Shown: positions 1-30,039 of the stretch, one piece after another
Position numbering within the stretch: position 1 is the stretch's first letter
How the letters are laid out: each line of letters opens with the position of its first letter
IMG/VR virus record: IMGVR_UViG_3300017720_000042
Span: 1 to 30,039 of that record
Reading direction: 5' to 3' (one strand)
DNA from: a virus
DNA length: 30,039 nucleotides
The notes under the pieces: generated by a model
Databases searched by the model: none
What the model was told of the DNA's origin: nothing
What the model saw: only the letters and a program-made list of their open reading frames with translations
Translations under genes and position numbers: made by a program

Positions 1-143
1 GCTACTATTACTTCGTCTTGGGGGAAACGTTCTTTATACATTCTAGCTAAGTCAGGGTCTAACTCTACTGCTGTAATTTTATGTTCGTCTGACCATTTAT
101 ACCGATTACCTCCTAAGCAGGCATATAAATTTAATATTCTCAT
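1..143 (-). CDS. Cytosine-C5 DNA methyltransferase, N-terminal part (cut by window edge)
   Basis: This is the first 47 codons of the methyltransferase found complete at 29229-29888, seen again because the genome wraps round. It contains motif I (LYACLGG) and motif II (VELDP). The ATG at 141-143 overlaps the TGA stop (140-142) of the downstream nuclease as ATGA, so the two genes are probably translationally coupled. The one difference from the other copy inside this gene, base 104, exchanges two arginine codons. The rest of the gene is missing only because the window starts here. Confidence 0.93.
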   Translation of the reverse strand, partial: MRILNLYACLGGNRYKWSDEHKITAVELDPDLARMYKERFPQDEVIV

Positions 144-294
144 AACGTACCCTGGATAGTATAATCGTTTATATCAAAGTCGTCTCTTATGTAAGTGTTA
201 TATAGTTCTATGCCTCGTTTTAATTCTTTACGTCCGTACTCGTAAAACTCTTCCGAAACGTTCCAAATTCCAATATCTAAGTTAGCTTTGTCTA
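1..294. repeat. Terminal direct repeat, copy 1
   Basis: Bases 1-294 match 29746-30039 at a constant offset of 29745 with no indels. The seven substitutions are at 104, 145, 149, 155, 164, 170 and 191 of this copy. The repeat covers the start of a methyltransferase gene and the end of a PD-(D/E)XK nuclease gene. It shows that the sequence wraps round a circular or terminally redundant genome. Confidence 0.97.
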
Positions 295-25046: not shown

Positions 25047-25811
25047 TTTTAAATTTATTTTTTATGTTTTGTGCCTCAGCCTCTTCTAATTCTTTTTGAT
25101 ACTGAAGCATTGTTAAACAGTGATGAACAGGTTTACGAGTAACCTCTTCTACCTTTGTTATGTCTCCGTTACTTAATTTATATATACTATTATACCAACC
25201 ATATTTTACTCTAAAATCTTCGTTTGCTCCGAAACTTTTTTCTTCAGTCTGTTCTCCTGTTTCAGAGTAGAGGTTAGAGTAACTTCTAATAATTCCGTCT
25301 CTAAACTGTAAAAAAAAACCAAGGCTGATACTGCTACAGAAGTAGGCATATTTTTTAATACCTCTGCATAATGAACTCCGTCATAAGGTTTAAGTTTATA
25401 CTTACCTTTATAGGTCATATCAATAGGACGATATAAAACAGCCATAGCTTTATTCATAGTAGCCCAATTAGTTAAATTAGTTTCTGCGTCTATGTATTCT
25501 CCAAAACTTAGATCCTGTAAGTCAGGAACAAAACCAAACTCTAAGCCTCCGAGCTTGAATCTAGTTATAAGACTAGGTTTTTGATTAAGTACTTTATTGA
25601 GTTTATTTACAGCTTTGTCTACGTCTGTCATTTTATACTGCAGACCCTCTTTAGGTTTTAGCCCACAGAATATTTCTAGCATTTTAAGACTAGCCTCTTC
25701 GCTTGTATAGTCTTCGTCAGATTTACCCTCAAACTCCATAAGGAATTTTTGATATTGGTATAGTGGTATGCTATGTAAATCTTTAGGTATTAATAATTCT
25801 ATTTTCTTCAT
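25036..25811 (-). CDS. Tail assembly chaperone, long product by -1 frameshift (about 258 aa)
   Basis: This is the long product read from the same ATG as the entry at 25206-25811. At 25311-25317 the ribosome meets T TTT TTT inside a run of nine T residues and can slip back by one base. The -1 frame then stays open for 91 codons to TAA 25036-25038. The extension begins LQFRDGIIRSY and contains KYGWYNSIYKLSNGDITKVE and RKPVHHCLTMLQYQ, which are well-formed protein segments that no ATG of its own can reach (the only upstream ATG in the gap, at 25200-25202, is out of frame and gives 9 codons). The total is 167 + 91 residues. Siphoviruses make G and GT chaperones in this way. Direct mass-spectrometric proof is absent, and transcript slippage at the T9 run is an alternative mechanism. 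Confidence 0.85.
25206..25811 (-). CDS. Tail assembly chaperone, short product (201 aa, G-like)
   Basis: The unshifted product is 201 residues, mainly helical, beginning MKKIELLIPKDLHSIPLYQY, then 'FLMEFEGKSDEDYTSEEASL' and EIFCGLKPKE. The pattern 'IPLYQYQ.....E' with a later 'FGFVPDLQDLSFGEYIDAET' occurs in a family found between neck and tail genes of Bacteroidota phages. Proteins of this type bind the tape measure during tail assembly. The last 34 residues, after the slippery site, are basic and polar (TLKQENRLKKKVSEQTKILE) and are replaced in the longer product. Promoter motif L4 ends 7 bp before the ATG and a terminator lies just upstream of it. In most siphoviruses this gene is next to the tape measure; here five genes lie between. 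Confidence 0.8.
   Translation of the reverse strand: MKKIELLIPKDLHSIPLYQYQKFLMEFEGKSDEDYTSEEASLKMLEIFCGLKPKEGLQYKMTDVDKAVNKLNKVLNQKPSLITRFKLGGLEFGFVPDLQDLSFGEYIDAETNLTNWATMNKAMAVLYRPIDMTYKGKYKLKPYDGVHYAEVLKNMPTSVAVSALVFFYSLETELLEVTLTSTLKQENRLKKKVSEQTKILE
25311..25317 (-). promoter_or_regulatory. Slippery heptamer T TTT TTT for -1 frameshift
   Basis: In the zero frame the codons are GTT TTT TTT TAC (25308-25319), so the P- and A-site tRNAs can both re-pair after a one-base slip. The run is nine T residues on the coding strand (25310-25318). After slippage the next codons are TTA CAG TTT AGA. No obvious strong hairpin was found within 10 nt downstream. Confidence 0.8.
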
Positions 25812-25849: not shown

Positions 25850-25878
25850 AAAAAAAACCCCCTAGAAAATCTAGAGGG
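25850..25878 (-). terminator. Intrinsic terminator closing the small inserted unit
   Basis: CCCTCTAGA and TCTAGGGGG form a 9-bp stem (one G-U pair) with a 3-nt loop, followed by eight T residues (25850-25857). It ends the transcript of 25901-26319 and is followed at once by late promoter L4. Confidence 0.94.
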
Positions 25879-25900
25879 TAATTTAACTAAACACTAATTA

Positions 25901-26074
25901 TTAAACAAATTCTTTTTCTAAATGTTCAAATTCGTTTTCTCTGAGTTTTAATTCTTCAAAGGATAATCTAGCAAGGTATAATTTGTTGTCGTAGTCGTCC
26001 CTTTGTTTAGTATAGTATTCTACGTTCCATTGAGCCTCCTTTAGGAGTTTCTCGTATCTAGTTTCTTTTTCCAT
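25901..26074 (-). CDS. Small coiled-coil protein of the inserted unit (57 aa)
   Basis: Open frame of 57 codons. ATG 26072-26074 overlaps the stop of the 81-residue gene by one base (TAATG), and the stop is 22 bp before a strong terminator. The product is highly charged and helical throughout, starting MEKETRYEKLLKEAQWNVEY, with a heptad-like pattern in its second half (SFEELKLRENEFEHLEKEF), so it should form a coiled coil. No family recognised. Being in a unit with its own promoter and terminator, it may serve an accessory function such as host takeover or exclusion of other phages, but this is only inferred. Confidence 0.75.
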   Translation of the reverse strand: MEKETRYEKLLKEAQWNVEYYTKQRDDYDNKLYLARLSFEELKLRENEFEHLEKEFV

Positions 26075-26319
26075 TATCTTATAGCAAATTGTTCGTCAGT
26101 ATAAGAAGTATAAAAAGTCTTAGGTAATTGCTTAGTAATAGCTAGTGCTAAAGAATTATTATTATTAGCATATTTACATATCATAGTAGATAGTTTACCT
26201 TGAAGCTCAAATAGTTCTTCTTGGTCTAGCATATCACATAAGAAGAAATCGTCTCCTAAAGTGTTGGCTATTGCTTTTACTAACTTAGTGTTAGTGTACT
26301 CGTTTTTTGTTTTCATCAT
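26074..26319 (-). CDS. Hypothetical protein of the inserted unit (81 aa)
   Basis: An 81-residue protein, helix-rich and with several acidic residues: 'TLGDDFFLCDMLDQEELFEL' in the centre, then ICKYANNNNSLALAITKQLP and an aromatic tail (KTFYTSYTDEQFAIR). It has two adjacent methionines at the start; either may be used. There is no membrane segment or known motif. Upstream are a consensus host-type promoter and a folded RNA leader that ends 17 nt before the ATG, so expression may respond to that RNA. Downstream it overlaps the 57-residue gene. The whole unit interrupts the usual order from terminase to structural genes. Confidence 0.75.
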   Translation of the reverse strand: MMKTKNEYTNTKLVKAIANTLGDDFFLCDMLDQEELFELQGKLSTMICKYANNNNSLALAITKQLPKTFYTSYTDEQFAIR

Positions 26320-26336
26320 ATAGTATTTAATTAACC

Positions 26337-26441
26337 AAAACCTATTTAGTAGTTTACGTCTGTTCAGGGGCTCGGTTTACCTGAGACGACAATTATTCTC
26401 ATTGCTGAGGTTTTCGGTCTTACTGTATATCTGCCTACTAA
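26337..26441 (-). ncRNA. Structured RNA leader or small RNA (putative riboregulator)
   Basis: The minus-strand RNA starting near 26443 can fold into: P1, TTAGTAG/CTACTAA (26435-26441 with 26346-26352); P3, CTCA/TGAG closed by a GCAA tetraloop (26398-26409); P2, GTCT and CAGG (84-87, 80-83 of 26300s) with CCTG and AGAC (26365-26368, 26358-26361). A 7-bp pseudoknot, AAAACCT (26408-26414) with AGGTTTT (26337-26343), is also possible. G+C content is clearly higher than in the surroundings. It has a promoter directly upstream, no terminator before the next gene, and ends 17 nt from the ATG at 26319. I do not recognise the class. A packaging signal (pac/cos) next to terL is an alternative. Confidence 0.6.
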
Positions 26442-26449
26442 CGACAATA

Positions 26450-26481
26450 CAAATATAGTAAATATAAATGATATTAACAAA
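26450..26481 (-). promoter_or_regulatory. Consensus Bacteroidota promoter (TTTG-N20-TATATTTG)
   Basis: TTTG at 26478-26481, a 20-bp spacer and TATATTTG at 26450-26457, an exact match to the -7 consensus TAnnTTTG of the primary Bacteroidota sigma factor. The predicted start, 5-7 nt downstream, falls just before stem P1 of the RNA at 26337-26441. It lies in the gap right after the large terminase gene. Confidence 0.8.
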
Positions 26482-26498: not shown

Positions 26499-27656
26499 TT
26501 ATCGTATAGCGTAACGAGCTACCTTTGGTCTAGCTAGTTTTTTGATAATACTATAACGGACTGAATCAATACTATGATCGTTTTTTTGTACAGGAACATT
26601 AAGCAGAGTTCCGTTTTTATCTTCTTGCCATTTATAGTTTTTAAACTCCTTTAAAGTATTCATAGACCTGGAGGTTATATGGAGCTTGTATCTTTTAAGT
26701 AAGTCAATACCCATATTAATAGAGTCCCTACCTTTTTGAGCAGCCTTAACATTATATCCGTATCTATGCAGTTCGTCTATAGACTTAGGCTCGGCTGAGT
26801 CTGCAAAGATTTCTATTTGTCTAGTTATTCCTAGTTCTACAAATTTGTCTTTTATGTCTCGGTTAGTTAAACCATAACTATAAAATAATTCATCTATATA
26901 TAATTTGTCTTGATAGACGTAAGAAAAAACTAAACAGCTAGGATCGTTGACAAAGCCCCAATCTAAACCTCCTGCTATAAACTCAGCCTCAGCAGGTATT
27001 TTATCTATTTCTAAATAAGTAAATATAGTTGCTCTATTCCTACCTACCTGACCTAAACCATAAACCCTCCAATAGTCAGCGTCAGTATCTTTAAGGCGTT
27101 CTATTTCTTTTACTATGTCAGGGTTTAGAAACCTATTATCTTTATAAGTTGTTATATTAAAAAAAGCATCGTTCCTGGTTTTAACTTTGCTATATATCCA
27201 GGAGTATTCATCGGAGGGGTTATAATCTAAAATAAGGTTAGACTCAGTTCTAAATAGAATTTGATTAAATGATTCGTAGCTACATTCGTTAGCCTCGTTT
27301 ATAAAGGCTATATGTCTTTTACGTCCTTTAAGTCTTGAGGGTTGGTCGATACTCACAAACTCGAATAAATTGTTGTTTAGTTTATATTCGCTATTACTTT
27401 TATTATGAGCTTGGTCTTCGTATAGATTATACGTCTCAAGTATGTCGAAGAAGTCTCTCATTACTGTAGCCCTTAAAGCAGGATAGGTAGCCCTAAATAT
27501 TGTAATGGTTTTATTAGTATGTTTCATAGCATACCCAAAGATTAACCAAAGAATTATATTATAGGTTTTACCTGAACGAGTTCCTCCTTGAAATATTTTT
27601 ATTTTATGATCTGACTTATGCAGATAGTCATATACTATATTAGTCTGTACTTTCAT
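26499..27656 (-). CDS. terL: Terminase large subunit
   Basis: A 385-residue packaging motor with ATPase and nuclease domains, on the short side for the family but complete. Walker A is GGTRSGKT (24-31). Walker B is HIAFINEANE (115-124) with the catalytic glutamate. The coupling region follows near 145-150 (DYNPSDE). The RNase H-like nuclease has aspartates at D232 (GGLDWGFVNDPS), D286 (IFADSAEP) and D364 (NDHSIDSVRY). The sequence is of the PBSX/terminase-3 kind. It cuts concatemeric DNA and drives it through the portal. It overlaps the small subunit by 17 bp. The downstream gap is occupied by a promoter and RNA element of a different unit. Confidence 0.96.
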   Translation of the reverse strand: MKVQTNIVYDYLHKSDHKIKIFQGGTRSGKTYNIILWLIFGYAMKHTNKTITIFRATYPALRATVMRDFFDILETYNLYEDQAHNKSNSEYKLNNNLFEFVSIDQPSRLKGRKRHIAFINEANECSYESFNQILFRTESNLILDYNPSDEYSWIYSKVKTRNDAFFNITTYKDNRFLNPDIVKEIERLKDTDADYWRVYGLGQVGRNRATIFTYLEIDKIPAEAEFIAGGLDWGFVNDPSCLVFSYVYQDKLYIDELFYSYGLTNRDIKDKFVELGITRQIEIFADSAEPKSIDELHRYGYNVKAAQKGRDSINMGIDLLKRYKLHITSRSMNTLKEFKNYKWQEDKNGTLLNVPVQKNDHSIDSVRYSIIKKLARPKVARYAIR

Positions 27657-29232: not shown

Positions 29233-29888
29233 AACAATAACGAAGTTTGAGTTGTATTCTTACTCTCCATAATTCCCATAGCCCTATTTAATATTACGTC
29301 TCCAACCTCATAGTCTACTAAGTTTCTTATAATTTTTATTTTACTTTGACTCCCTTTATAAGTGTCTAAAAACTTTCTATCAATTTTATGAAACTCACAT
29401 AGTTTATTTTTTTCATCGTCAGCCTGACCACACATTATACCCTTTGCCTCGGCTCTATCTATAGTAGCAGGTAATTTAAAATTACACCAATATAAATGAC
29501 GACCTCGTTTCTGAGCTTCGATTAAAGGTTTGTAATAAGGTATAACATTTTCGACTACATATTTTCCTTTAAAATGTTCTTGAAGAAATAATATTTGTTG
29601 ATACAAACTCATATCAGGATATTTAGGAATATAAAAATCTCTGTTTTTTTGGGTTACTCTTACTTTGCTATGGGTAGGGCAAGGAGGACTAGACCAAATA
29701 AAATCATATTCTTTATAGTGATCTAAAATATATTTATGGGCATCGGCTACTATTACTTCGTCTTGGGGGAAACGTTCTTTATACATTCTAGCTAAGTCAG
29801 GGTCTAACTCTACTGCTGTAATTTTATGTTCGTCTGACCATTTATACCTATTACCTCCTAAGCAGGCATATAAATTTAATATTCTCAT
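29229..29888 (-). CDS. Cytosine-C5 DNA methyltransferase-like protein B (219 aa)
   Basis: A 219-residue protein with motif I NLYACLGGNRYKW (5-17), motif II AVELDPDLARMY (25-36), an acidic motif III-like segment VIVADAHKYI (45-54), motif IV SSPPCPTHS (66-74) with catalytic C70, motif VI YVVENVIPYY (110-119), a segment GRHLYWCNF (129-137) like motif VIII, and 'IRNLVDYEVGDVILNRA' near the end, a clear motif X-like 'RN.v.p..G..i'. It is only distantly similar to its neighbour A, so the pair is unlikely to be a recent duplication. The ATG overlaps the stop of the RecE-like gene across the genome junction. Target site not predictable from sequence. Confidence 0.85.
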   Translation of the reverse strand: MRILNLYACLGGNRYKWSDEHKITAVELDPDLARMYKERFPQDEVIVADAHKYILDHYKEYDFIWSSPPCPTHSKVRVTQKNRDFYIPKYPDMSLYQQILFLQEHFKGKYVVENVIPYYKPLIEAQKRGRHLYWCNFKLPATIDRAEAKGIMCGQADDEKNKLCEFHKIDRKFLDTYKGSQSKIKIIRNLVDYEVGDVILNRAMGIMESKNTTQTSLLL

Positions 29889-30039
29889 AGCGTCCCCTGA
29901 ATAGTATAGTCGTTAATATCAAAGTCGTCTCTTATATAAGTGTTATATAGTTCTATGCCTCGTTTTAATTCTTTACGTCCGTACTCGTAAAACTCTTCCG
30001 AAACGTTCCAAATTCCAATATCTAAGTTAGCTTTGTCTA
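29746..30039. repeat. Terminal direct repeat, copy 2
   Basis: Second copy of bases 1-294, 287 of 294 identical and without indels. Substitutions relative to copy 1 fall at 29849, 29890, 29894, 29900, 29909, 29915 and 29936. All are synonymous in the two genes covered. This copy joins the end of the methyltransferase cluster to the nuclease gene, and with copy 1 it closes the genome. Confidence 0.97.
29885..30039 (-). CDS. PD-(D/E)XK exonuclease, C-terminal part (cut by window edge)
   Basis: The last 50 or so codons of the RecE/YqaJ-like nuclease, the complete form of which is at 140-919. The amino-acid sequence is identical to that copy although six bases differ, all at third codon positions. 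Its TGA (29885-29887) overlaps the methyltransferase B ATG (29886-29888). The rest is absent because the window ends. Confidence 0.93.
   Translation of the reverse strand, partial: DKANLDIGIWNVSEEFYEYGRKELKRGIELYNTYIRDDFDINDYTIQGTL

Follow-up and report, generated by a model that had tools for sequence, protein, structure and literature searches.

Does the short segment that separates the terminase gene from the next late gene in this phage genome represent a moron-like accessory unit, and, if so, what does it carry? The window, i.e., the whole stretch of DNA that was analysed, comprises 30,039 nt (IMGVR_UViG_3300017720_000042, positions 1–30,039), and the unit studied occupies positions 25850–26481. 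The source is a marine Bacteroidota phage, from a group that is abundant and understudied. Upstream of the unit lies terL (26499–27656; Terminase_3, with PF04466/PF17288 matches) and downstream of it a 201-aa gene of unassigned function (25206–25811), the unit and both neighbours being on the minus strand. The original prediction had placed the unit between terminase and tail or chaperone genes. The terminase half of that statement stands; a chaperone or tail role is not established for the 201-aa gene, which matches phrog_32199 only. Genes for the portal, the head protease, and the tape measure are found farther downstream of it. A PHROGs scan of 30 window proteins, a subset of the ORFs, gave no integrase. 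A direct repeat of 294 nt, 98% identical, is found at both ends of the window (1–294 and 29746–30039), so the record is probably a complete genome of ~29.7 kb with terminal redundancy.

Empty and Loaded Slots

Relatives of terL were fetched from viral contigs, and the slot was defined as the stretch from the terL stop to the conserved gene of ~200 aa. In 30 relatives the slot is empty: it measures 24–76 nt and usually contains little besides the late motif ACGTTATATA, with a lone terminator retained in one locus of this class (L081). In 67 non-redundant relatives the same flanking genes enclose an insert of 0.2–2.8 kb, and nearly all the loaded slots whose far end is visible finish with a terminator and then the ACGTTATATA motif. 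The cultured Nonlabens phage P12024S has no insert, its terL overlapping the next gene. The comparison of this gap among relatives, which was proposed together with the original prediction, thus reveals the presence or absence with intact flanks that is expected of a moron. Conservation of the two small genes at this place in all relatives, the outcome named in advance as contrary, did not occur: the 57-aa family is found in 15 of the 67 loaded slots and the 81-aa gene in very few.

The unit also has a promoter and a terminator of its own, as judged from sequence signals. Flavobacterium psychrophilum has TAnnTTTG as its sigma-A box and, in addition, the box TAnnTTGY (SM5); the −7 box spans −12 to −5 relative to the start (PMC9723704). 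The Bacteroidota promoter announced earlier for this DNA, TTTG-N20-TATATTTG, is indeed present at 26481–26450 on the minus strand, with TTTG at 26481–26478 (−33) and TATATTTG as the −7 box at 26457–26450. The relaxed pattern gives three matches in the 30 kb against 1.0 expected, a single match alone being not significant; the significance comes from recurrence at the same place in the relatives. A search for TTG, 17–22 nt, and TAnnTTTG or TAnnTTGY from −40 to +130 of the terL stop retrieved a host-type promoter in 33 of the 67 loaded slots and in none of the 30 empty ones, the same search in shuffled sequence giving a mean of 1.46 and a maximum of 5. This strict pattern has no match in about half of the loaded slots. 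Most loaded slots use TATATTGC (TAnnTTGY, SM5-type); in the window and some others, the sigma-A box TATATTTG takes its place.

At the other end, the strong terminator that had been noticed is found as an intrinsic terminator (25850–25879, minus strand) formed by a stem-loop of 10 pairs (25879–25857) plus a T tract. It is followed by the late-type promoter motif TAACGTTATATATA (25829–25816, minus strand), which stands before the 201-aa gene, outside the inserted unit, and occurs four times in the window against 0.26 expected. From the empty/loaded polymorphism, the promoter enrichment, and the terminator followed by ACGTTATATA, we conclude that the moron layout is real, the sequence signals describing a transcription unit that has been placed after the terL stop and ahead of the late promoter. 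It is a self-contained insertion, absent from the 30 relatives and from P12024S, and other cargo is found at this place elsewhere. Like lambdoid morons, it lies between conserved genes as an additional unit equipped with a promoter and a terminator, is missing from close relatives, and varies in content. Unlike them, it has promoters of flavobacterial types, one dedicated slot after terL across the whole phage group, and a conserved pseudoknotted 5′ UTR.

The Leader RNA

This 5′ UTR, which we call RNA A, is the main finding of the present work. The original prediction mentioned a structured leader as a detail of the unit; the structure is borne out, but the leader turns out to be a conserved RNA family. 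In the window, it begins on the minus strand at G26445, the predicted +1, and runs to 26332, where the 3′ strand of the pseudoknot ends; it scores 106.8 bits with the covariance model R1. The family comprises 12 members, duplicates left out (window, L025, L030, L033, L034, L035, L039, L040, L047, L084, L109, and L163). From 5′ to 3′, the leader comprises the conserved start GUCGUUAGUAGGCA (26432–26445), the conserved stretch GUAAGACCGAAAACC (26409–26423), hairpin P2 (26389–26405; GCAAU/AUUGU, in relatives GCUAU/AUAGC), and hairpin P3 (26357–26388), which has an outer stem CGUC/GACG and an inner stem AGG/CCU. The P3 loop UAAACCGA (26379–26372) is the 5′ strand of the pseudoknot, and its partner UUGGUUA (26332–26338) is separated from the first ATG by 12 nt.

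Covariation gives strong support to the pseudoknot. The helix between the P3 loop and the strand upstream of the start codon ranked first in an unbiased helix scan of the alignment. P2, P3, and the pseudoknot together have 96% standard pair cells, compared with 78% after shuffling and 26–38% with slid partners, and changes on both sides are seen in 11 of the 18 pairs. The two pseudoknot strands vary in concert as AACUAGCC/GGUUAGUU, AGCCAAACA/UGUUUGGUU, AAGGCGUG/CACGCCUU, and others. Plain MFE folding of the window leader performs no better than shuffles (z −0.55), which is misleading because the fold is a pseudoknot and MFE cannot form it. A 5′ outer stem AGUAG/CUACU of the window leader was dropped, since it is absent from the relatives. 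Searches of Rfam with the leader, at gathering and relaxed thresholds, returned only chance matches and no family at the cut-off. Going by alignment and covariation, RNA A is thus a conserved RNA family absent from Rfam and previously undescribed.

The placement of the RNA is likewise conserved. In 9/9 members that have the 5′ start GUCGNNAGUA (GUUG in two of them), a spacing of exactly 4 nt separates it from the 8-nt −7 box upstream. Since the −7 box covers −12 to −5, this spacing indicates that RNA A should begin at +1. At its other end, the distance from the pseudoknot to the ATG is 12–19 nt in 12/12 members. No other RNA comes between RNA A and the gene that follows, and at least five unrelated gene families are found in that position: the 81-aa family in the window and, by eye, in L109 and L040; the 57-aa family in six members; and different small genes in L047, L084, and L163. 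Even in L163, whose TerL is only 29% identical, RNA A keeps the same place. Five members (L030, L033, L035, L039, and L047) carry further modules that separate the 5′ start from the core, so the −7 box lies 79–223 nt from the core instead of the usual 32–34 nt.

The family seems confined to this site. Model R1 found 15 matches in 695 kb of loci, all in the slot and all on the sense strand. Two MAG contigs with terL relatives (L166 and L167) have no RNA A match, and blastn against GenBank phages gave no real match. A host origin was considered and rejected: none of 299 Flavobacteriaceae genomes has an R1 match, the control being recovered in 5/5 cases and about 12 candidates being scored per genome, which makes this a moderate negative.

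The Genes behind the Leader

The two overlapping small genes that had been reported are confirmed in the window as an 81-aa ORF (26074–26319) and a 57-aa ORF (25901–26074), both on the minus strand and sharing one base (TAATG). The first probably starts at its second ATG (26316), which gives 80 aa and is the point at which its relative in L041 starts. Between these two sequences dN is 0.065 and dS 0.69 (dN/dS about 0.1), and the gene is under purifying selection. Window and L041 are 89% identical in this protein, compared with 69% in TerL and about 51% in the next gene, which is a sign of exchange of the gene between phages. Close relatives of the 81-aa protein were found in only three viral contigs, one of them identical, and all in this slot. 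The 57-aa ORF belongs to a family of small charged proteins, of which 15 members were found; in most cases, no further gene stands between a member and the terminator. Neither protein has a match in Pfam, PHROGs, or PADLOC.

Proposed Role of the Leader

We consider, with a probability of roughly 55%, that the inserted segment is a moron-type accessory unit whose leader would control an interchangeable cargo in cis. The host RNA polymerase would start at about G26445, and the first ~115 nt of the transcript would fold into a compact pseudoknotted RNA, i.e., a 5′ UTR whose end lies shortly before the first start codon. There, RNA A may serve as a portable gate or stabiliser for the translation of whichever small gene sits behind it, the 81- and 57-aa genes being the putative current cargo. 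The terminator would insulate the unit from the late genes, whose transcription would restart at ACGTTATATA. The spacing of RNA A is fixed while the gene behind it changes, and the 81-aa gene occurs without RNA A in L041; we therefore regard RNA A as a portable 5′ UTR of the unit and not as a gene-specific switch. It is from the spacing that we infer an action in cis on translation or stability, which might activate, protect, or be subject to regulation. A benefit to the phage or its host is likewise conjectural, as are the expression outside the lytic programme and the roles in superinfection exclusion, anti-defence, or host fitness that the original prediction had suggested. Members of this phylum do without Shine–Dalgarno sequences, and their initiation is adjusted through mRNA structure (PMC6847099). 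The five members with modules between the 5′ start and the core count against a leader acting in cis, since such an arrangement is unusual for a simple UTR regulator.

Moron slots, and RNA at moron sites, are already known; what is new is an RNA family as 5′ UTR and many RNA modules as content. A strongly covarying family, new to Rfam, here has a clear place, since it fills the 5′ UTR of an accessory unit of a phage; RNA elements, besides genes, are thus exchangeable as moron-like cargo. With about a dozen noncoding modules and dozens of small ORF families, this slot is a directed source of phage accessory functions. No literature on RNAs in this slot was found in a search that covered few subscription journals.

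Other Noncoding Modules and Alternative Readings

RNA A is not the only noncoding element in the slot, and structured RNAs make up much of what this slot carries. About a dozen further modules (B–O), of 55–300 nt, co-directional and on the sense strand, were found only in this slot among the fetched loci, and several are highly conserved. For modules B–K, structure was scanned roughly, most of them with few sequences, and our claim concerns their conservation and place and no fold. Module B (~153 nt, not in Rfam) has 106 of 155 columns invariant among phages with TerL 58–83% identical to that of the window (L007, L008, L010, L012, L029, L112, L113, L117, L118, L120, L125, and L126). Module F (~115–120 nt) is tRNA-like: it has a D-like and a T-like arm, and the anticodon arm is replaced by a long AU-rich one. 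It is present in L004, L009–L014, L016, L017, L023, and L031 (e.g., L009:1542–1659). Matches of module F to RF00005 reach 29.6–36.3 bits in five of the loci scanned, and ARAGORN called no tRNA in the module F loci. Two more tRNA-like modules were observed in L013 and L029. The order of modules is constant (C or T1, D, E, F or T2, B, ORFs), like gene cassettes, in L011, L010, L012, L013, and L029.

A boxA-like motif occurs in seven slots (L006, L025, L029, L030, L032, L035, and L053) against 0.11 expected, the pattern having been picked after seeing them; it lies in several unrelated modules, for example as CGCTCTTTAACAT and AAGTTCATTGACATA. The 16S leaders of Flavobacteriaceae carry boxA GTTCATTRACATATTG, and the copies in L006 read AAGTTCATTGACATA. 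An earlier candidate for the host boxA, TTCTTTGACATATTG, had no match in host genomes and was replaced by GTTCATTRACATATTG on reading the 16S leaders. The resemblance of the module copies to these leaders suggests that some modules could be untranslated RNAs protected by rRNA-type antitermination.

Such boxA-led untranslated modules are the basis for a different and more tentative reading of the whole locus, to which we give clearly less credit than to a leader in cis. The slot would be a dedicated RNA cargo site, in which a dozen or more structured RNAs (pseudoknot, tRNA-like, boxA-led) are kept and exchanged by marine Bacteroidota phages under a host promoter, acting in trans on host systems as effectors or decoys, the small proteins being companions. 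In its stricter form, which we hold to be rather unlikely, the leader itself would also act in trans with the other modules, for example as anti-sRNAs or by decoying or inhibiting defences that sense RNA or target tRNAs. The number and conservation of modules found nowhere else in the loci, the RF00005 matches of some, and the host rRNA boxA copies, as expected of untranslated RNAs, all agree with it. Moreover, there are precedents. The moron anti-sRNAs AgvB and AsxR of EHEC prophages are also noncoding RNAs at a phage moron insertion site, although these are Hfq-bound sRNAs of 51–60 nt (PMC4104026), whereas here we have a pseudoknotted leader of ~115 nt and modules of 55–300 nt. CBASS senses phage RNAs from the terminase region; the cabRNA of staphylococcal phages is, like RNA A, a structured phage RNA from that region, but its transcription takes place inside terS-terL, and it does not form a conserved RNA family of its own (PMC10686824). 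The fixed distance of RNA A to the start codon and its constant position as the last RNA before a gene would be needless for a trans-acting RNA, and point back to the leader acting in cis.

Processive antitermination, in the manner of HK022 put or EAR, seems to us improbable. A 5′-terminal RNA would modify the polymerase for read-through of the terminator into the late genes. RNA A does resemble put RNA, since both are structured phage RNAs located 5′-terminally in a transcript, here a predicted one with fixed promoter spacing, and boxA-like sequences exist in other slots. However, its fold is different, it ends beside the ATG, and a terminator with a fresh late promoter comes after it in nearly all loaded slots, which points to insulation; the fixed distance from RNA A to the ATG would also be left unexplained. 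SAM-II and preQ1 riboswitches are H-type pseudoknots, formed between a hairpin loop and a strand that closely precedes the start codon, with an A-rich linker and conserved unpaired stretches next to that codon. RNA A shares these features, but a metabolite riboswitch, i.e., a pseudoknot through which a bound small molecule would switch the gene that follows, is the least probable reading, since RNA A precedes at least five unrelated small gene families and no pathway gene, has no Rfam match, and is found only in one phage slot, with no R1 match in the 299 Flavobacteriaceae genomes (control 5/5; about 12 candidates scored per genome).

Besides RNA modules and small ORFs, the slots of L034, L040–L043, and L165 also contain a gene of ~210 aa that, by eye, resembles a DNA cytosine methyltransferase, and in some of them this gene has its own TATATTGC box.
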